64,000 nucleotides of DNA, from contig JAUNIB010000001.1 of assembly GCA_030523645.1 (NCBI GenBank), forward strand, positions 372,001 through 436,000, in the 5' to 3' direction. Below the pieces are notes generated by a model. That model saw only the letters and a list, made by a program, of their open reading frames with translations. It made no database searches and was not told where the DNA came from. The stretch is from Selenomonadaceae bacterium (lineage in GTDB: Bacteria; Bacillota; Negativicutes; Selenomonadales; Selenomonadaceae). The position numbers and the translations under genes were made by a program. This document shows, one piece after another, positions 16,222 through 28,737 of the stretch (positions are counted from its first letter, which is position 1; the number at the start of each line of letters is the position of its first letter).

Positions 16222-16297
<76 letters not shown>

Positions 16298-16308
16298 TTT
16301 GATGATAA

Positions 16309-16346
16309 CTCGCATGCAGGCATGGTCCATGGTGTTTGCGTGCGAG
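16309..16346 (+). terminator. Hairpin between the two tRNAs
   Basis: CTCGCATGC (16309-16317) pairs with GCGTGCGAG (16338-16346) with one G-T pair; a weak T run (ATTTTCT) follows. It could be a partial terminator or a processing signal. Confidence 0.4.
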
Positions 16347-16359
16347 ATTTTCTATGATT

Positions 16360-16436
16360 GGGCCTATAGCTCAGTTGGTTAGAGCAACCGGCTCATAACC
16401 GGTCGGTCCTTGGTTCAAGTCCAAGTGGGCCCACCA
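16360..16436 (+). tRNA. tRNA with CAT anticodon, probably tRNA-Ile2 rather than elongator tRNA-Met
   Basis: A 77-nt cloverleaf with encoded CCA. The acceptor GGGCCTA pairs with TGGGCCC and the anticodon loop is CTCATAA on stem ACCGG/CCGGT. The C4-G69 and C5-G68 pairs are those reported as recognised by the lysidine synthetase TilS, and the acceptor/anticodon arms resemble Ile2 of Bacillus. Initiator features (three G-C pairs below the anticodon, unpaired 1-72) are absent. Assignment between Ile2 and Met is an inference. Confidence 0.85.
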
Positions 16437-18757: not shown

Positions 18758-19589
<832 letters not shown>

Positions 19590-20100: not shown

Positions 20101-21810
20101 ATGAGCAATATGAATGGTCCCCAGATTATAATAACTAAATCAGAGAAAAACCCGGGAATTGCCCTTGCCCTGGGCTTGCTTTTTGGCCCTTTTGGTTTGA
20201 TGTATGCATCTATTGAAAATGCGATTATCATTCTAATTGCAACGATTGTTTTATGGGTAATTTTATTTGTAATAAGTATACTTACAATGGGATTGGGCCT
20301 CATTCTTTTTATCCCGTTTTGGACAATCCAAGGATTGATTTGCGGTTACTTGGCATACAAGGGAGCAAAAAAATATAATGAGCAGTTGAATGCAGAAGCC
20401 AGAGGTATGTATCAACAACCGCAAAACAAAACAGTAAAACAAGAAACCGTAACTGTTGATGAGGACGGCACTATTGAGATAGAAAACAATAGTGTTCGTT
20501 CTGATGAAAATGAAGTGTTGGCATTGCCAGCCGGTTCAACCATTACAGGAAATGAGGGTAATGCAAATCAAAAAATTGAAATCAATATCCCGAAGGTAGA
20601 TATTGACACTGATGAGCTTAAAGAAAAAGGAAAAGAGATTGCTGGCGAGATTCAGCAGAAAAGTGCCGAAATGGCCGAGAAACTGAAGCCGTTTGCCAAT
20701 CAGGCTGGTGCAAAAGCGGTGGAATTAGGCAAAACAATGGGAAGCACTGCCAATGAAGCCGGTGGTGCGCTAAAGACTGCTTTACAGGGCGAATCCGGAA
20801 AAAAGATTGCTATGGTTGTCGGTGGTGTGGCTATGGCAGGAATACTTGCTTTCGCTGGGTACAAGTCGCTTGATTTGATTGGCCCCATGCGGTATGAGAG
20901 CAAGGCGAAATCCTATGTTGAGATAGTGTTAGATACCAAGCCGGTTTTTGAATCATTGGCGTCGCTGGACAAAAACTATACTGATGAAAAAATCACGGAA
21001 GCAAAAGGAAAGCTTCAGGATGCATTGGCTAAGCTGGCTGCACTTGAAGCAGAACTGATGGGAGCGGAAGTGCCTAAAAAGTACAGTGTAGAACACATAA
21101 GGATGATGAAAAGCATTGAGGCAGAGAGAAGCCTATTGGAGATTTGTATAAATGACCTTGAAGATCCAAAGAAAAATACGATAAAGAGAATTTATCTGAA
21201 GCCGCATTATGAAATGAACAGAAAATGCCTGAATGGAGTTGTAATTGGCAGTGCAGATTTCAAATCAATGTCTTATCAGAACAAACTCCTGAATAAGGCA
21301 ATGAATAATTTTGAAAAAATGTATGTGGAGCGAGGAAAGAAACAGGAGGCAGATAACAGAGCAGCCAAAATGGCAGATGCAAAAAAGAAACAGGATGAGG
21401 CAAAGAAAACTGCATCTGCAGGACAGTTGGCAGCAGGCCCAAAACAGGCAGAAATAAACGATGCTGCCAGAAGTGCCAAAGAATTGTCCTTTATAACTGA
21501 GATAGTAAACAGAAAAGGTGGGGAGCTTGCAATTACCGGCAGCTTCTTCAATGGATATGATAAGCCAGTTCTTAGGGTTGCAGACCTTCATGTTGAAGTA
21601 GTGCTGATAAACAACGGCAAAGAAGTAGCGCTGGTAAGAGACTGTGTGGTAAGTGATGTGCCGCTTGGGGTTAAGGTATTGATGCCTAATGCCATGTCTG
21701 CGGCGGTGATTAATATTCCGGAAGGAAATTTCCCTAAAGATATTATTGCCGATGCCTGTGTTGTTCGCGTAAGCAAAATCAAATGCGCTCTTGGTAAGCC
21801 AAAGGCGTGA
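20101..21810 (+). CDS. Large membrane protein with duplicated two-TM module and long helical domain
   Basis: A 569-aa protein with no recognised function. Residues 1-95 repeat the two-TM module of the preceding gene. Residues 105-175 are a polar, acidic linker. Residues 175-232 are amphipathic helix rich in Ala/Glu/Lys with apolipoprotein-like KGKEIAGEIQQKSAEMAEKL. A third membrane segment spans about 235-255 (IAMVVGGVAMAGILAFAGY). A helical region (265-385), a Lys/Ala-rich stretch (400-450) and a beta-rich C-terminal domain (about 455-569, LAITGSFFNGYDKPVLRV) follow. It is likely an envelope-spanning or cytoplasmic-membrane anchored scaffold. It is followed after 13 bp by an exported protein. 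Confidence 0.85.
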   Translation: MSNMNGPQIIITKSEKNPGIALALGLLFGPFGLMYASIENAIIILIATIVLWVILFVISILTMGLGLILFIPFWTIQGLICGYLAYKGAKKYNEQLNAEARGMYQQPQNKTVKQETVTVDEDGTIEIENNSVRSDENEVLALPAGSTITGNEGNANQKIEINIPKVDIDTDELKEKGKEIAGEIQQKSAEMAEKLKPFANQAGAKAVELGKTMGSTANEAGGALKTALQGESGKKIAMVVGGVAMAGILAFAGYKSLDLIGPMRYESKAKSYVEIVLDTKPVFESLASLDKNYTDEKITEAKGKLQDALAKLAALEAELMGAEVPKKYSVEHIRMMKSIEAERSLLEICINDLEDPKKNTIKRIYLKPHYEMNRKCLNGVVIGSADFKSMSYQNKLLNKAMNNFEKMYVERGKKQEADNRAAKMADAKKKQDEAKKTASAGQLAAGPKQAEINDAARSAKELSFITEIVNRKGGELAITGSFFNGYDKPVLRVADLHVEVVLINNGKEVALVRDCVVSDVPLGVKVLMPNAMSAAVINIPEGNFPKDIIADACVVRVSKIKCALGKPKA

Positions 21811-21826
21811 TAATTAGGAGTTAATG

Positions 21827-22591
21827 ATGAAGAAATCAATTATTCATATTTTTCTCGTAGTTGTACTGTTTTTTTGCTCTGCTGCGATAGTAGAGGCAGG
21901 CGACTTTGTTCAGCTGGCAGATTCGGGCAAATTGAGCCTTGGACGAGATAAAGCATGGTCAAAGACTTATTCATCCGGGCAGAACAAGATTAAAGTGCAA
22001 TTTAGAAACTTAATGTTGGCATCGTCAAAGTCCAGGTATCATTTAATTGTGTGGTGGAATGGAAAGCGTATTGCCGACGGATATTGCCCGGAGGTGCAAG
22101 GCGGTTACCGAATTAAGGTTTTCCAAAACGGTCCGGACAAAAGGGTCTTCATTAGTTTGAATACGCAGTATAGGTCTGTGTTGCTAGGCTATGAGCCGGA
22201 AGTAAATAAGCTGCATAAATATATCGACAGCAAGGATTTTGCTACCAGTGCGCCAATTCCTAATATGACTATAAACATGAAGACAAAGGACATAATGCTT
22301 CTTTTTACAGGGGCAGGGAGGAATGCCAGCAATCCGGTTAAGTATAGGTTGCATTGGGATAGCGATGCCAAGTGGTTTGGCTACAGTGATGAGACTGTAT
22401 ACTACACAGAGTCTGACGAAGAGGAAGATGATGAGCCTGAATACTATGGCGGCGAAGAATCAGTGACACCGACTGTTGCTGCCGGTAGCAATAATGGCTC
22501 ACAGGAATTCGAGGAAGCTGAAGTGGTTACAGGCAGCAGTGCGGATGGAGAATTGTTCTATGAAGAGTCAGAAATTGTAGTAGGAAAATAA
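21827..22591 (+). CDS. Exported protein of unknown function
   Basis: A 254-aa protein with a clear signal peptide (basic KK, then IIHIFLVVVLFFCSAAIVEA, likely cut after VEA). The mature part is beta-rich, with repeated short strands such as KIKVQFRNLML and YHLIVWWNGKRIADGY. Its C-terminal 70 residues are very acidic (ESDEEEDDEPEYYGGEE). The second of two adjacent ATGs is chosen for its 6-nt spacing from AGGAG. No family recognised. It is part of the same-strand run 19827-24597 with short gaps. Confidence 0.82.
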   Translation: MKKSIIHIFLVVVLFFCSAAIVEAGDFVQLADSGKLSLGRDKAWSKTYSSGQNKIKVQFRNLMLASSKSRYHLIVWWNGKRIADGYCPEVQGGYRIKVFQNGPDKRVFISLNTQYRSVLLGYEPEVNKLHKYIDSKDFATSAPIPNMTINMKTKDIMLLFTGAGRNASNPVKYRLHWDSDAKWFGYSDETVYYTESDEEEDDEPEYYGGEESVTPTVAAGSNNGSQEFEEAEVVTGSSADGELFYEESEIVVGK

Positions 22592-22616
22592 TTGGAGAGA
22601 AAAATTGGAGGAAAAA

Positions 22617-23174
22617 ATGAAAAGGGTAAAGCTTTTATTACTAGTTGCAGTAGCAATGATTTTGTCAATTTCATTAGCAGGATGCGGTGGCGATAAATTC
22701 GCTGGAAAGTGGATGATTCAGAATGATGAAGAAAATAAATCGCAGAGTCAGATAGGTTATATAGATATTGCTAAGAATGGCGACGCGAGCTATATTGTCA
22801 CAATAAATGAAGATGTGGTGAACTACGATAATTATTGGAGAAAAACAGTATCTGATGTGAAAGGAAATAAAGACGGGGCAATAGAGGTGTCATGGGAAAA
22901 AAAGAAAAGTGGGCCGTATCCTGCTAAGTTGGTGGGAAATACTATTAGCTGCGATATAGGTGGATTCTTTGGAGGTACACTGAATATTGTGCATATAGAA
23001 AAAGACGATTCCTTGATGATGCAGGCTAGCGGTGCTAGTGGTGTCATGTTAAAGAAGTTTAATGAGAAAGACTATGAGGCTTTGAAAAAAGAAAAGGAAA
23101 CAGAATTCTTGATAAAGTTTGCCACAGAAAGACCGGACATTTATATGAGATTTAAGTCTGAGACGAAAAAGTGA
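22617..23174 (+). CDS. Lipoprotein of unknown function
   Basis: A 185-aa protein. The signal peptide MKRVKLLLLVAVAMILSISL ends in a lipobox LAGC, so it should be lipidated at Cys and anchored to a membrane. The mature domain starts GGDKFAGKWMIQ and has a lipocalin-like or META-like feel (FAGKW.., then alternating strands such as DASYIVTINEDV), a weak inference. The ATG at 22617 has GGAGG 7 nt upstream; an in-frame TTG at 22605 is less likely. Confidence 0.82.
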   Translation: MKRVKLLLLVAVAMILSISLAGCGGDKFAGKWMIQNDEENKSQSQIGYIDIAKNGDASYIVTINEDVVNYDNYWRKTVSDVKGNKDGAIEVSWEKKKSGPYPAKLVGNTISCDIGGFFGGTLNIVHIEKDDSLMMQASGASGVMLKKFNEKDYEALKKEKETEFLIKFATERPDIYMRFKSETKK

Positions 23175-23191
23175 GTAGGGAGCAGTGAAAA

Positions 23192-24046
23192 ATGATTAAG
23201 ATAAATAAGGCACTGGTAGCAGGCTTGGCTTTGACCGCTGCACTGGCTACCTTTACTCAAAATGCAGAGGCTAGAAAAATAACTATAGGTGATGCAATAG
23301 GTATTTTGGGCAGCATTGGCGGTGGCTCAGTGGACGGCATAAGTAATATTGGCAAGCAAAAACATGCTGTGGCCAATATGAATGACTCGCAGAAATTGCT
23401 GATGCTAGGAGTAGCAAATGGTGATATCGAAATCGTTTCCCAGATGCTGGCGCAGGGACTGGATATCGATGGAGTATATGATGACAGGAGATATCGGTAT
23501 GGAGGTGTAACCCCACTGTGTTTGGCCTTGGACTATAGGAATATTGAAATGATTCAGTTTTTGCTTGAGCAAGGAGCAGATGTAGATGGATTCTATGATT
23601 TTAATAATAATAGAATCTCATATATTGTATCCGCAGCAGGTAACAATGACCTTGAGCTGGTGAAACTTTTTCATGAATGTGGGGCAAAAGTCAACAGTAT
23701 GTCTAAAGATAGGGATGGGTCGTACAATGCGGTCAATAGTATAGTTTGCAATTATCAGTATTACCCATCTGAAGAATTGTTACGATATTTAGTTGCGGAA
23801 GGTATAAATTTAAATGTTAAGAAGGATGGGTTAACCCCTTTTCTTTTTATGGTTAAGCATAGGTCACAACAATTAGGAACAATTGAGGTGCTTGCTGAAT
23901 GTGGAGCAGATTTGTCTGCCCGCGATGCAAATGGGCAAAATGCTCTGCAGTATGCGGCTGCACAAAGTGATATAAAGTATTACAAATTCATTAAAGATAT
24001 TTATGACCGCGGACAGCAACCTGGCTATTATAACCCGGATAACTAA
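23192..24046 (+). CDS. Exported ankyrin-repeat protein
   Basis: A 284-aa protein with an N-terminal signal peptide (ALVAGLALTAALATFTQNAEA). After a glycine-rich linker, at least four ankyrin-type units follow. They show GDIEIVSQMLAQGLDID, TPLCLALDYRNIEMIQFLL, NNDLELVKLFHECGAKVN, and GTIEVLAECGADLSARDANG with NALQYAAAQSDI. Exported ankyrin proteins often mediate protein-protein contact in the periplasm; the partner could be one of the adjacent exported proteins, which is inference. It lies 17 bp after the lipoprotein gene. Confidence 0.88.
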   Translation: MIKINKALVAGLALTAALATFTQNAEARKITIGDAIGILGSIGGGSVDGISNIGKQKHAVANMNDSQKLLMLGVANGDIEIVSQMLAQGLDIDGVYDDRRYRYGGVTPLCLALDYRNIEMIQFLLEQGADVDGFYDFNNNRISYIVSAAGNNDLELVKLFHECGAKVNSMSKDRDGSYNAVNSIVCNYQYYPSEELLRYLVAEGINLNVKKDGLTPFLFMVKHRSQQLGTIEVLAECGADLSARDANGQNALQYAAAQSDIKYYKFIKDIYDRGQQPGYYNPDN

Positions 24047-24087
24047 ATATGTAATATTTTTAGAAGAGTGCATAAGGAGATAAAAGA

Positions 24088-24597
24088 ATGCGTAAATTTG
24101 TTTTGCCGTTGATTATGGCTTTTGTATTATTTTTCGTTACCGGACAATGTGACGCCGCAGACAAGAGGATACCGGTAATTTCGACTGAGGAAGTATCCAT
24201 CGGAGGTATTACGGTTGGTACATCAGAGGAAGAAGTTAAAGGGATATACGGCGAGCCATCCGAGGAAGAAGACAGACAGGGACCAAGCGCATGGGGCGGG
24301 CCTACGCGAAAAGCACTATATGGAGATAGCTTCGAGATAACTTATGCAATGCGAACTGGAACTGCTATGGTTATAACAAGCTCTGCTAATAATGGCTTGA
24401 TGAGCGGCGGCGGCTTCTCTGTAGGAGACAAGATACATTCCGTGTTGGCTAAATATGGTAATGGATGGCACGGTGGCTTTAAGGATAAGCAAGGTCGTCC
24501 TCTTAAAATGATGATGTATCGTAGTAGCCGCAATACAATTATAAGATTTAAATATAATGATAATATGGTTATTACGGAGATTAGTTGCTTTAATTAA
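24088..24597 (+). CDS. Exported protein with two BamE/SmpA-like motifs
   Basis: A 169-aa protein with signal peptide (FVLPLIMAFVLFFVTGQCDA). The mature part has two units of the form small-residue-G-x3-x3-V-x3-YG: ITVGTSEEEVKGIYGEPS and FSVGDKIHSVLAKYGNGW. This pattern is seen in SmpA/BamE-like and related beta-alpha modules. It is the last of the six consecutive membrane or exported genes; the strong hairpin at 24680 ends the run. Function unknown. Confidence 0.82.
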   Translation: MRKFVLPLIMAFVLFFVTGQCDAADKRIPVISTEEVSIGGITVGTSEEEVKGIYGEPSEEEDRQGPSAWGGPTRKALYGDSFEITYAMRTGTAMVITSSANNGLMSGGGFSVGDKIHSVLAKYGNGWHGGFKDKQGRPLKMMMYRSSRNTIIRFKYNDNMVITEISCFN

Positions 24598-24738: not shown

Positions 24739-24837
24739 TAGTGCAGCAGCCAATCCATCAGGTTCAGATTTTTTATCCCGTCGTAGGAGCTGACCACGCT
24801 GCGGTCGAGGGAGAGGACGATTTTTCGTGATTGTCCT
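24739..24837 (-). pseudogene. Remnant of a DUF4143-type ATPase 3' end
   Basis: On the minus strand the bases encode DNHEKIVLSLDRSVVSSYDG followed by IKNLNLMDWLLH, nearly the same as the last 30 residues of the intact ATPase at 25961-27193 (IILSLDRSMVNSYDG, then IKNLNLIDWLL). The rest of the gene is missing. At TTGTCCT (24831-24837) the similarity passes to deoC. Confidence 0.88.
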
Positions 24838-24913: not shown

Positions 24914-25186
24914 TCAGAATAAATCCGAATGACTGCCGGTTCTTGCCGCAGTTAAAACAAGTTTATCCTGTTCAATGTAATAGACAAGCAACCAGTCAGG
25001 TTGAACATGACATTCCCAAAATCCTTCGTAATCTCCTGTCAGTCTGTGATTTCTGTGCTTTTCCGCTAGCGGGCGTTCTGCTAAAAGCTCATCTATCACT
25101 TTTTGTAACAGTCGAAGGTCAGCGCCTCGCTTTTTCATGCGCCTATAATCTTTACGGAATTTTGCCGTTGTGCTAAGCGTCAGCAT
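24914..25186 (-). CDS. yafQ: YafQ-family mRNA interferase toxin
   Basis: A 90-aa RelE/YafQ-type toxin that would cut mRNA on the ribosome. The N-terminus LTLSTTAKFRKDYRRMKKRG, the segment EKHRNHRLTGDYEGFWECHV and the end LVLTAARTGSHSDLF match the family; the catalytic histidines HRNHRL and the C-terminal GSHSDLF are present. The start is the ATG at 25186, 1 bp past the antitoxin stop; upstream in-frame codons overlap dinJ. It is co-transcribed with the antitoxin. Confidence 0.93.
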   Translation of the reverse strand: MLTLSTTAKFRKDYRRMKKRGADLRLLQKVIDELLAERPLAEKHRNHRLTGDYEGFWECHVQPDWLLVYYIEQDKLVLTAARTGSHSDLF

Positions 25187-25187
25187 A

Positions 25188-25475
25188 TCATGCGTCCTCT
25201 GCATCAAGCTCGTCAAAAAGCTCGGCTGCGGACTGATATTTTTTTGCTTTTATTGTACCCTCGGCGATGGCCTTTGCCTCAGCCATAGCCAGTAGTGTTT
25301 CTCTGTTATATGAGGGGAGTTCCACGCTGAATGGAAGACCGCCTCGCATTATACTCTGTCGTAGGAAAATATTTATAGCGGAAGAAAGGTCGAGCCCCAA
25401 TGTGCGGAAGAGTGCGGTTGCCTCTTTTTTTACGTCGGCATCCAATCGGATTTGTGCTTGTGCTGTTGCTGCCAT
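25188..25475 (-). CDS. dinJ: DinJ/RelB-family antitoxin
   Basis: A 95-aa antitoxin. The ribbon-helix-helix N-terminus reads AQIRLDADVKKEATALFRTL, followed by GLDLSSAINIFLRQSIMRGG, the standard DinJ pattern. The C-terminal tail (AAELFDELDAEDA) is acidic and should wrap the toxin. An AAGGAGG site precedes the ATG. The complex usually represses its own promoter, found at 25498-25529. Confidence 0.94.
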   Translation of the reverse strand: MAATAQAQIRLDADVKKEATALFRTLGLDLSSAINIFLRQSIMRGGLPFSVELPSYNRETLLAMAEAKAIAEGTIKAKKYQSAAELFDELDAEDA

Positions 25476-25555: not shown

Positions 25556-25650
25556 GCTTACAAGTCAAAACTTTTGACTTCACTAGTGATATTTTCTGCA
25601 ATCATTCTTGCGTGCGGGTTGAATTTGTACTTCCTGAGCAGTACAATTTG
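25556..25650 (+). promoter_or_regulatory. Duplicated promoter region before the CxxHNxWH lipoprotein
   Basis: A -35 TTGAAT (25619-25624), 17-bp spacer and -10 TACAAT (25642-25647) match the DUF3990 promoter at 27368-27396 in position and context. The similarity runs left through CTGCAAT and TTACAAGT..AAAACTTTTG. TGTACTTCCTGAGCAGTACA is an inverted repeat corresponding to the ATACTTC operator there. AAGTCAAAACTTTTGACTT (25562-25580) is a perfect palindrome. Confidence 0.7.
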
Positions 25651-25694
25651 AAAAGATGCTTTATTAGATTCAGAGTCTGGATGGTGACTGAATT

Positions 25695-25910
25695 ATGAAG
25701 AAGAGAATTGCCGCACTTGTTGCACTGCTGCTGGTGACCGGATGCTCCTACGCCAGTGCCGCGTATTTCTGCCGTGAGCATAATGTCTGGCACGATGGCT
25801 CAAAGATGTATTTCTGCAAGAAGCATAATACATGGCATAAGCCTGACTCGAAATTCTTTTGCCGTGAGCATAACACTTGGCATACAGGCTTCGGATGCTG
25901 TCACAGCTAA
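25695..25910 (+). CDS. Small lipoprotein with three CxxHNxWH repeats
   Basis: A 71-aa protein, function unknown. The signal peptide MKKRIAALVALLLVTGC ends in a lipobox (VTGC, Cys17). The mature part is almost wholly three 15-residue repeats: YFCREHNVWH (24-33), YFCKKHNTWH (39-48) and FFCREHNTWH (54-63), followed by CCHS. Each repeat supplies one Cys and two His, so metal or haem binding is likely but unproven. The repeats are divergent at the DNA level, so this is not a fresh slippage event. It is monocistronic, between a duplicated promoter and a terminator. Confidence 0.85.
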   Translation: MKKRIAALVALLLVTGCSYASAAYFCREHNVWHDGSKMYFCKKHNTWHKPDSKFFCREHNTWHTGFGCCHS

Positions 25911-25955
25911 AAATCGGGTGCAGTTCCTATTACGGACTGCACCCGATTTTTTATA
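25911..25955. terminator. Terminator between lipoprotein and convergent ATPase
   Basis: AAATCGGGTGCAGT pairs with ACTGCACCCGATTT, with T and A runs on either side. The right arm and TTTTTTATACAT tail closely resemble the terminator at 28761-28803. Confidence 0.9.
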
Positions 25956-25960
25956 CATAT

Positions 25961-27193
25961 TTAATCCTTCAGCAACCAATCTATCAGGTTCAGATTTTTT
26001 ATCCCATCGTAGGAGTTGACCATGCTGCGGTCGAGAGACAGGATGATTTTTTCGTGATTGTCCTTTATCATTTGCAGCGGCCGCAGCTCTCTTGCTCTTG
26101 TTTCTTCTGACATCATTGTTTCCGTGACTTGAATATAGAGTCGTTCATCGGGCTTTTCGGCTACGAAGTCGATCTCGGTGTCACCAATCTTGCCGATGTA
26201 CACTCGGTAGTCACGACGAAGAAGCTCCAGATACACAATGTTTTCCAGTATGTGTCCGGTGTCGGTATCTCTGTAGCCTAAAAGCATATTGCGGAAGCCA
26301 ATGTCAGAAATATAGTTTTTGCCCAATGTTCGCAGAAGTTGCTTTCCTCTCACATCGTAACGGCCTACAGAGTAGAAGATATAAGCACTGTTCAGCATGG
26401 AAATATATTTATCAATAGTTTTTCCGGCGACTTTGTTTCCTCGGACAGATGGCAGTTCTCCTTCATTTGAGAGTACATTTCCTATGTTGTTTGGCGAGGT
26501 AATACTCCCAATGCTGGAGCAGAGAAATCTGATGATTTTGTCCAGAGTCCGTTGGTCTGCCTGATTGTTTCGCTGTAGGATGTCTCTGAGAATGACGGTA
26601 GAGTAGACTCCTTCAAGAGCCTGATGGCAGCGCTGCTCATTAAATTTGTATTCCCGTAGAACAGGCATCCCGCCAAACTGCATATACAACTGGAATTTTC
26701 TTTCGATTGTCGTTGGGTTTTCAAATTCGTAAAACCTTAGAAAATCCTTGAAGGATAAAGGCAGCATTTTTATTTCGACATATCTCCCGGAGAGGAGAGT
26801 CGAGAACTCGGTGGAGAGGAAGTACGCATTGGAGCCTGTGATATAAATATCAACATCAAATTCCAATCGGAATGATTCAATGGCCTTTTCCCAATGCTCA
26901 ATTGCTTGCAGTTCATCAAAGATTAAATAGTTTTTTGCACCGGCTGTCATTTTGCCGCATACATAGTCGTAAAATTCCAAGTAGCTGGTCAAATCACGAT
27001 ATCTTAGAGACTCTAAATTCATGTGGACTATCTGTGTCTCCGGTATGCCGTCGGCAAGGAGCCTCTGATGGAAAAGCTCTAGTAGGGATGACTTTCCGCA
27101 GCGGCGTATTCCGGTGACGATTTTTACCAAATCAACATCCTTGTGCTCGATGAGTTGTTTTACATATTCCGGTCTGTCCATCAACTGACTCAT
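25961..27193 (-). CDS. P-loop ATPase, AAA/DUF4143 type
   Basis: A 410-aa protein. Walker A is in IVTGIRRCGKSSLLELF (about residues 26-42), Walker B in YLIFDELQAIEHWEKAI, and a sensor-like IYITGSNAYFLSTEFSTLLSG follows. The C-terminal half carries the nuclease-like DUF4143 region with ENIVYLELLRRDYRVYIGK and TEIDFVAEK. Such stand-alone ATPases are common in anaerobes and their role is unknown. The ATG at 27193 is preferred because GGGAAG lies 7-8 nt before it; two ATGs upstream lack a site. A decayed copy of its 3' end lies at 24739. Confidence 0.9.
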   Translation of the reverse strand: MSQLMDRPEYVKQLIEHKDVDLVKIVTGIRRCGKSSLLELFHQRLLADGIPETQIVHMNLESLRYRDLTSYLEFYDYVCGKMTAGAKNYLIFDELQAIEHWEKAIESFRLEFDVDIYITGSNAYFLSTEFSTLLSGRYVEIKMLPLSFKDFLRFYEFENPTTIERKFQLYMQFGGMPVLREYKFNEQRCHQALEGVYSTVILRDILQRNNQADQRTLDKIIRFLCSSIGSITSPNNIGNVLSNEGELPSVRGNKVAGKTIDKYISMLNSAYIFYSVGRYDVRGKQLLRTLGKNYISDIGFRNMLLGYRDTDTGHILENIVYLELLRRDYRVYIGKIGDTEIDFVAEKPDERLYIQVTETMMSEETRARELRPLQMIKDNHEKIILSLDRSMVNSYDGIKNLNLIDWLLKD

Positions 27194-27249
27194 AAGTTCA
27201 CTTCCCAACATCATTTAATGACTAAAGCATATAATAAGTGTGAATATAA

Positions 27250-27325
27250 ATCAAGAAGTTTTCGACTTGCAGGTCAGAAACTTCTTGATTTATAAAAGTT
27301 TTCAACTTACAAGTCCAAAACTTTT
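27250..27325. repeat. Two similar hairpins upstream of ATPase and DUF3990 genes
   Basis: ATCAAGAAGTTT/AAACTTCTTGAT (27250-27289, perfect 12-bp arms) and AAAAGTTTT/AAAACTTTT (27294-27325) enclose related inner sequences (CGACTTGCAGGTC and CAACTTACAAGTCC). The second hairpin is the part shared with 25556-25580. Confidence 0.65.
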
Positions 27326-27367
27326 GGTATCACCGGTGGTATTTGCTGCAATAGTTTGGTGCGCAGC

Positions 27368-27422
27368 TTGAACTTATACTTCTTTGGAAGTATAATGAGT
27401 GAAAATACTTCTGTAGAAGTAT
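27368..27422 (+). promoter_or_regulatory. Promoter with twin palindromic operators for the DUF3990-HTH pair
   Basis: A -35 TTGAAC (27368-27373), 17-bp spacer and perfect -10 TATAAT (27391-27396). Inverted repeat 1, TATACTTC-TTTG-GAAGTATA (27375-27394), covers the spacer and -10. Inverted repeat 2, ATACTTC-TGTA-GAAGTAT (27405-27422), lies at the expected transcript start. Both have the same ATACTTC-N4-GAAGTAT form, centred 29 bp apart, as for a dimeric HTH repressor. Confidence 0.82.
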
Positions 27423-27434
27423 ACGAGGTGAAAC

Positions 27435-28124
27435 ATGGTGAAGAAAGTTTTATATCACGGTTCTGCCAATATTATTGAGCAGCCGGTATATGGAGCCGGG
27501 AAGCCTTATAATGATTACGGCAGGGCGTTTTATTGCACAGAGCACATCGAGTTGGCAAAGGAATGGGCTTGCAATGAAGGTGCGGATGGGTACGCCAATA
27601 AATATGAGCTGGACGCAGACGGGTTGAGTATTCTGAATCTGTCTGGCAAGGAATATACTATTCTTAACTGGTTGGCAATATTGCTGGATAACAGGACAGC
27701 TCGGGCAGCATCGCCGGTAGAAAAAAGGGGCAAAGAATATCTGTTGGAGAATTTTTTGCCGGAATACAGGCATTATGACATAATCATTGGTTATAGGGCA
27801 GATGATTCTTACTTCTCTTTTGCCAGAGCTTTTCTTGCCAATACGATTTCTCTTTCTCAGCTGAGTTATGCCATGAGACTGGGAAAGCTGGGTGAACAGT
27901 ATGCAGTAGTTTCAGAGCGGGCATTTAGTAGGCTGAAGTTTATTGACTGCTTGGCAGCAGACAATACAGTCTACTATCATAGACGGAAGTCCAGGGATGA
28001 TGAAGCGAGGGTGGCCTTTCACAAGGAAATGGAAAAAGACGATATGGATGGTATATTTTTGCGGGATATCATCAGAGAGGGGATGAGGGATGATGATGCA
28101 CGCTTACGACAGTATCTATCTTGA
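27435..28124 (+). CDS. DUF3990-family protein, possible ADP-ribosyltransferase fold
   Basis: A 229-aa protein. The N-terminus VLYHGSANIIEQPVYG, then YNDYGRAFYCTEHIELAKEWA, is the DUF3990 signature, a family placed near ADP-ribosyltransferases (the H of YHGS and the Y of FYCT would be the NAD-contacting residues). It has no signal peptide or membrane segment. The start follows a GAGGTG site. Its 3' end overlaps the HTH gene by 35 bp, so the two are coupled. Toxin role with the HTH protein as antitoxin is inferred from layout and operators, not shown. Confidence 0.85.
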   Translation: MVKKVLYHGSANIIEQPVYGAGKPYNDYGRAFYCTEHIELAKEWACNEGADGYANKYELDADGLSILNLSGKEYTILNWLAILLDNRTARAASPVEKRGKEYLLENFLPEYRHYDIIIGYRADDSYFSFARAFLANTISLSQLSYAMRLGKLGEQYAVVSERAFSRLKFIDCLAADNTVYYHRRKSRDDEARVAFHKEMEKDDMDGIFLRDIIREGMRDDDARLRQYLS

Positions 28125-28737
28125 TGATGCAATGAGAAATCTCGGGGAAGCTGTTGATTATGCCGTCAATGCCTGCCAAATTTCTCCGGATGAATTCATG
28201 AATTTTTTTATAGCAAGTCGTTTGGCTGAGCAATTTGGCAAAGGTAATCCCAAATATTTAGCCGGCATGTCCGGGACGGAACTGGTCATGGAGAGTGTGT
28301 CGGTCAGCGGGAAGAAGATGGCTTTCCCTCCGGCTAGGGTCGAATACGATTGCTCACCTGAATACTGGTGTGGTTGGATTCTTGCGTATTATCAGTGGGC
28401 TACGGGTCGCCCGTTTAGAGATATTCATAGCCGGTTTTCTATGCAGGAATTATTGAAGCTGTATCCCACATTACATGAAGCTGATGAGGAGAAGGCGGTG
28501 GATACGCTAAACAATATGATTAAAAATGCCAATCAGCCGACAAAGCTGCAGCAGCAGAGGAAGAGATGCGGATATACGCAGAAAAGGCTGGCAGAAATAT
28601 CGGGCGTTAATATGAGAACATTACAGCAGTATGAACTGAAAGCAAAGGATATTGACAAGGCATCTGTTCAGACTGTGCTTGCGCTGTCAAATGCACTTGG
28701 TTGTGGGATTGAAGACATTATAGAGTATTCAGCGTGA
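28090..28737 (+). CDS. HTH protein paired with DUF3990, probable repressor/antitoxin
   Basis: A 215-aa protein. Residues about 155-215 form an Xre-type HTH (CGYTQKRLAEISGVNMRTLQ, then QYELKAKDIDKASVQTVLAL). The first 150 residues are an acidic alpha-helical domain (NACQISPDEFMNFFIASRLA, then SPEYWCGWILAYYQWATGRP) that I do not recognise by name. Three ATG codons in a row open the gene; any could be the start. It overlaps DUF3990 by 35 bp. The HTH is the natural candidate to bind the twin palindromes at 27375-27422. Confidence 0.88.
   Translation: MMMHAYDSIYLDDAMRNLGEAVDYAVNACQISPDEFMNFFIASRLAEQFGKGNPKYLAGMSGTELVMESVSVSGKKMAFPPARVEYDCSPEYWCGWILAYYQWATGRPFRDIHSRFSMQELLKLYPTLHEADEEKAVDTLNNMIKNANQPTKLQQQRKRCGYTQKRLAEISGVNMRTLQQYELKAKDIDKASVQTVLALSNALGCGIEDIIEYSA

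Follow-up and report, generated by a model that had tools for sequence, protein, structure and literature searches.

A tiny exported protein with three Cys-His-His repeats and its homologue in a second bacterium, a candidate family of metal binders

We describe a 71-residue exported protein encoded in a 64,000-nucleotide stretch of DNA from a Selenomonadaceae bacterium (the window, meaning the whole stretch analysed), which together with a homologue from another genome of the same class is, judging from the two sequences, a real and previously unnamed protein family, so far found in two distantly related species. Both members have a signal sequence, three 15-residue repeats carrying C-x2-H-x3-H, and a GFGCCH tail. 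The best explanation, to which we give about an even chance, is that these proteins would be exported metal binders whose hairpin repeats each offer a CHH set and whose tail adds CCH. What had been a single odd open reading frame (ORF) is now a family of two, and its proposed ligands, twelve cysteines and histidines conserved within fewer than 50 residues, can be tested.

The gene and the features around it are as follows:

24744-24837, minus strand: 94-bp remnant of the 3' end of an AAA_14/DUF4143 gene, 90.5% identical to 25970-26064
25619-25647, plus strand: sigma-70-like promoter, TTGAAT-17-TACAAT; the same layout is present upstream of a DUF3990 gene
25625-25646, no strand: operator-like palindrome, TTGTACT-N8-AGTACAA, with a second place at 27374-27395
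25683-25687, plus strand: weak ribosome-binding site GGTGA, read from the sequence, 7 nt before the ATG
25695-25910, plus strand: gene for the tiny exported repeat protein, 71-codon ORF with an ATG start, 71 amino acids
25695-25745, plus strand: signal sequence with lipobox V-T-G-C17 (LPAM_1, 7.4e-5, 23.4 bits, cut-off 20)
25764-25808, plus strand: repeat 1, YFCREHNVWHDGSKM, 15 residues, CxxHNxWH
25809-25853, plus strand: repeat 2, YFCKKHNTWHKPDSK, 15 residues, CxxHNxWH
25854-25898, plus strand: repeat 3, FFCREHNTWHTGFGC, 15 residues, CxxHNxWH
25887-25907, plus strand: conserved tail GFGCCHS, of which GFGCCH is identical in the homologue
25909-25951, no strand: intrinsic terminator hairpin, 43 nt (-28.1 kcal/mol, z -8.6)
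27306-27396, plus strand: diverged copy of 25557-25647 (91 bp, 75% identical), in front of the DUF3990 gene

The protein begins with MKKRIAALVALLLVTGC, continues through the three repeats and ends in CHS, the CC of its CCHS terminus straddling the end of repeat 3. Its signal ends in VTGC, which agrees with the lipobox pattern [LVI][ASTVI][GAS]C and with the Pfam model LPAM_1, and an ASA-A site 5 residues past the lipobox would equally suit signal peptidase I. Shuffling the 54 mature residues plus stop yielded one copy of CxxHNxWH in 76 of 300,000 shuffles, and two or three copies in none. The lipobox signal, the three repeats and the CCHS tail given in a preliminary description of this DNA are thus borne out by the ORF, LPAM_1 and the shuffles; so is its statement that no family with this motif was known, in that Pfam, NCBIfam, PHROGs and PADLOC gave no convincing match to the window protein beyond its signal.

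Several lines of evidence speak for a real gene. Compared with one another, the 10-residue repeat cores are saturated with synonymous differences (62-115% of sites) and differ at 12-21% of non-synonymous sites, so the motif is kept by selection and is no recent tandem duplication of DNA. Codon usage is native when scored against the 23 ORFs of the window accepted as genes: the score of the small gene was reached by 0 of 2000 wrong-frame windows, and 51% of right-frame windows scored at or below it. The promoter ends 47 nt before the ATG, and the terminator hairpin, missing from the list of a simple terminator scan, is common to the small gene and to a convergent AAA_14/DUF4143 gene. With its codon usage, promoter, terminator and repeats kept at the protein level, the ORF looks like a real gene. 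Lower codon-usage scores were found in its neighbours, namely a YafQ/RelB pair, the AAA_14 gene and two small exported proteins, as acquired genes would have.

A protein search of the 189 genomes of the window's taxonomic family returned the window gene alone (1/189), and a single-repeat profile matched 125 of these 189 genomes at E<=10, but among the matches listed a small exported ORF bearing the motif was not seen. The search for the repeated motif across genomes that had been proposed beforehand failed in its exact form, CxxHNxWH, and succeeded once relaxed, with one full-length homologue. Scans with close-relative patterns (249 stretches of genome contigs and 23 of viral contigs) contained no relative, and in the class genomes a WH-doublet DNA pattern matched the window itself and nothing else (1/380). 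All 106 stretches with the WH doublet (94 from genome contigs, 12 from viral contigs) were translated with nothing convincing: they read as repetitive-DNA frames, short chance ORFs or stretches lacking an in-frame doublet, and by reading of the translations none encodes a small exported protein of the window layout. The single motif occurred at 49 places in 47 of 380 class genomes, and among the matches listed these were chance frames except for the window gene.

With the pattern relaxed to two copies of C-x2-H-x3-H exactly 15 residues apart, 5 of 379 class genomes matched, as compared to 3 for the reversed control pattern; the five were the window, the genome G221, one 26-codon stretch and two places without an open in-frame doublet. 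A profile built from the two members matched 185 of 380 class genomes at E<=1, three of them, namely G362 and the genomes of both members, at E<=0.001, and revealed no further clear member, the remaining listed matches being taken for noise except for those in one genus, considered below. Viral collections scanned with relaxed queries contained no relative, and tblastn against plasmids and phages gave nothing below E 0.8 with the window protein and nothing with the homologue. The scope of the relaxed searches was 379-380 genomes from a single class together with viral, plasmid and phage collections. Among the titles and abstract openings seen, none describes the window protein, and no homologue of known function was found for the family. 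A family whose signature consists of ligands only can be hidden from an exact-motif search.

The homologue (G221; family f2, of the same class but a different family) is a full-length 72-residue protein of the same layout, MKKKICAITLLIMSMLCSVAFAESYWCNRHSTRHDGSSSYWCKEHNTRHASNGSYWCNEHNTRHSGFGCCHR, 51% identical to the window protein over its full length (E=4e-25). Its gene has a strong Shine-Dalgarno sequence, AAGGAGG, and is preceded by an SseB-domain gene; a gene for a 197-residue protein without a family (L210 7824-8417, plus strand) starts 2 nt after its stop codon and is probably in the same operon. The signal of the homologue has an AFA-ES site resembling that of signal peptidase I and no lipobox, and the motif tryptophan is replaced by arginine in all three of its repeats, so that tryptophan and lipidation both drop out as defining features of the family. 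The designation of the window protein as a lipoprotein consequently probably holds for that protein, whose lipobox is above the cut-off, and does not extend to the family.

What the two proteins share is the set of ligand-like residues, which serves as the family signature because the motif W and the lipobox are not kept in the homologue. Among 48 aligned mature residues, all 12 cysteines and histidines are conserved as compared to 14 of the 36 others, with a Fisher p=1.4e-4 that is somewhat generous, since Cys and His generally rank among the residues that change less, and that comes from one comparison between two members. No Cys or His was gained elsewhere between them. Across the six repeats only C3, H6 and H10 (C, H at +3, H at +7) are invariant; N7 is present in 5/6, and aromatic residues occupy positions 1 and 2 in 6/6. 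Between the two genes pS is 0.81 (near saturation) and pN 0.34. Repeats 2 and 3 of the homologue are identical at 27 of 30 bases, and repeats tend to be more alike within a species than between the two species, which we read as a sign of concerted evolution.

Conserved Cys and His amid otherwise changing sequence suggest the capture of metal ions outside the cell membrane, and the earlier proposal of a multi-site metal binder with one Cys and two His per repeat fits this conservation (C, H and H invariant in 6/6 repeats, 12/12 Cys/His kept). Single-sequence AlphaFold2 modelled the mature part with one beta-hairpin per repeat at pLDDT 71, the best of five models ranging from 48 to 71 (weak); with the signal included the best pLDDT was 59. 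No convincing match among solved folds came from Foldseek or VIA-align, and PDB profile searches gave weak matches at best (antibodies, C2H2 fingers and WW domains; E 0.14 or more, and E 1.4). As we envisage it, the protein would be exported and probably lipid-anchored in the window species, and probably cleaved free in the G221 species; it would be formed of three 15-residue beta-hairpin repeats and the CCH tail, each repeat contributing C-x2-H-x3-H with the Cys ending the first strand, one His in the turn and the other ending the second strand, in the manner of a zinc knuckle to which one more ligand has been added. Twelve ligands, in three C-H-H sets and a C-C-H tail, would suffice for three sites of four ligands each or four sites of three. 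The bound metal would most likely be Zn2+; Cu+, Ni2+ or some other soft metal is less likely. The protein may act as a buffer or acceptor for metal outside the inner membrane. Should the metal-binding reading prove true, few exported proteins with several metal sites would be smaller, and the family could shed light on the buffering of zinc or copper outside the inner membrane of these bacteria. Among the genes next to that of the repeat protein, in the window genome as in G221, none was recognised as a metal transporter or metal regulator.

The predicted hairpins recall those of zinc knuckles and ribbons (Cys-x2-Cys/His), in that C-x2-H falls in a predicted beta-hairpin turn with aromatics before the Cys. 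Zinc knuckles usually have a glycine after the second ligand, where this family has asparagine in 5/6 repeats; we regard a hairpin turn with C-x2-H and then N as knuckle-like. The family differs in its extra His at +7, its 15-residue tandem repeats and its export, and has no sequence match above threshold: the best Pfam zinc-finger or zinc-ribbon model, TtuA_LIM_N, reached E 0.067, and none passed the cut-off with the whole or the mature protein. Like bacterial metallothioneins and small periplasmic metal-binding proteins it is tiny and Cys/His-rich, but it has ordered CHH repeats and matches no Pfam or NCBIfam model of such proteins above cut-off.

Small size, export and Cys-rich hairpin repeats would also suit a disulfide-stabilised secreted repeat protein (adhesin-like, inhibitor-like or antimicrobial), its cysteines in disulfides and its histidines with surface roles, which is a rather unlikely alternative. 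An Asn-rich secreted protein of 74-89 residues occurs in ten genomes of one genus of the same class (L240-L249, f35 g101); its length and Cys number vary between species and some Cys are lost. It resembles the family described here in size, signal, a Y-x-C repeat of similar period, partly a Cys at +7, a 15-residue step at least once and a GC tail, a point in favour of the disulfide reading. It is at most a possible third relative, with E 5e-4 at best: it has no His, and hhalign aligns nothing beyond its signal region and first repeat, so we did not count it. More directly, each of the two family members has five Cys in its repeats and tail, an odd number for which pairwise disulfides alone cannot account, and the seven conserved His are as strictly kept as the Cys. 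The conserved C-H-H sets and the odd Cys count therefore favour metal binding, with zinc most likely.

The small gene carries a diverged copy of the promoter and operator region of a nearby pair, a DUF3990 gene and a helix-turn-helix (HTH) gene (27435-28737, plus strand, the HTH gene at 28090-28737), which match the PADLOC candidates PDC-M42A (1.8e-40) and PDC-M42B (5e-11). The pattern TTRTACT-N8-AGTAYAA is perfect at both operator-like places, with one change matched on both arms, and in the 2.3-Mb genome the exact palindrome occurs only at these two. A third, operator-like place that deviates by one mismatch (C13) was put down to chance, since a single match was obtained with the reversed control pattern as well. 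The terminator after the DUF3990-HTH pair resembles that after the small gene. On the simplest reading, the small gene would have acquired a duplicated promoter of the nearby pair; that the HTH protein controls it is a guess. Kinship of the small protein with DUF3990 through a FYCTEH stretch was rejected, the DNA likeness lying in promoter and terminator and none within the coding region.

The shared promoter and operator copy, the similar terminator and neighbours matching PADLOC candidate families could also mean that the protein is a lipoprotein with a role in defence or phage exclusion, regulated together with the DUF3990-HTH pair (PADLOC candidate PDC-M42), which we consider distinctly unlikely. 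Its weak match to the Cor superinfection exclusion family (phrog_1119, 0.0018) spans residues 1-29, mostly signal, and vanishes with the mature part as query, so that no similarity extends over the mature protein. Moreover, no such module was recognised among the ORFs of 8 kb around the homologue, and 17 kb around it contain no operator of the window type, indicating that regulation through the palindrome is not a family trait. More tentatively than metal binding itself, and rather improbably as a whole, the protein may represent a new class of exported multi-metal protein, a stack of three beta-hairpins that three or four metal ions, bound by the C-H-H sets and a C-C-H cap, hold together; it would serve as a periplasmic or outer-membrane metal store, in one species controlled by the operator of a putative phage-defence module.

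Haem binding at the surface, the other function raised by the preliminary description, agrees with a His-rich exported protein with several sites but is very unlikely: CxxCH, the c-type haem motif, is absent from all 71 residues, the motif W is R in the homologue, and no haem genes are among the annotated neighbours of the window gene. A non-functional orphan or decaying fragment, suggested by presence in one of 189 genomes and by the adjoining gene remnant and local duplication, is hardly credible given purifying selection, native codon usage and transcription signals, and is largely refuted by the full-length homologue.

The AAA_14/DUF4143 gene convergent to the small gene matches the PADLOC candidate PDC-S01 and exists in the genome as five full-length copies and one partial copy in addition to the remnant; the remnant points to local duplication and deletion. 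The YafQ/RelB toxin-antitoxin pair (24914-25475, minus strand) lies between this remnant and the small gene, and a near-perfect 50-bp palindrome (27245-27294; 25-nt arms, no spacer) lies upstream of the AAA_14 gene. A DUF3990 homologue, 53% identical, is present in G184. Further upstream, a serine recombinase (Resolvase, 18833-19561, plus strand) precedes mostly unknown proteins at 20101-24597, and with two tRNAs at 16222-16433 this stretch is possibly an accessory region.
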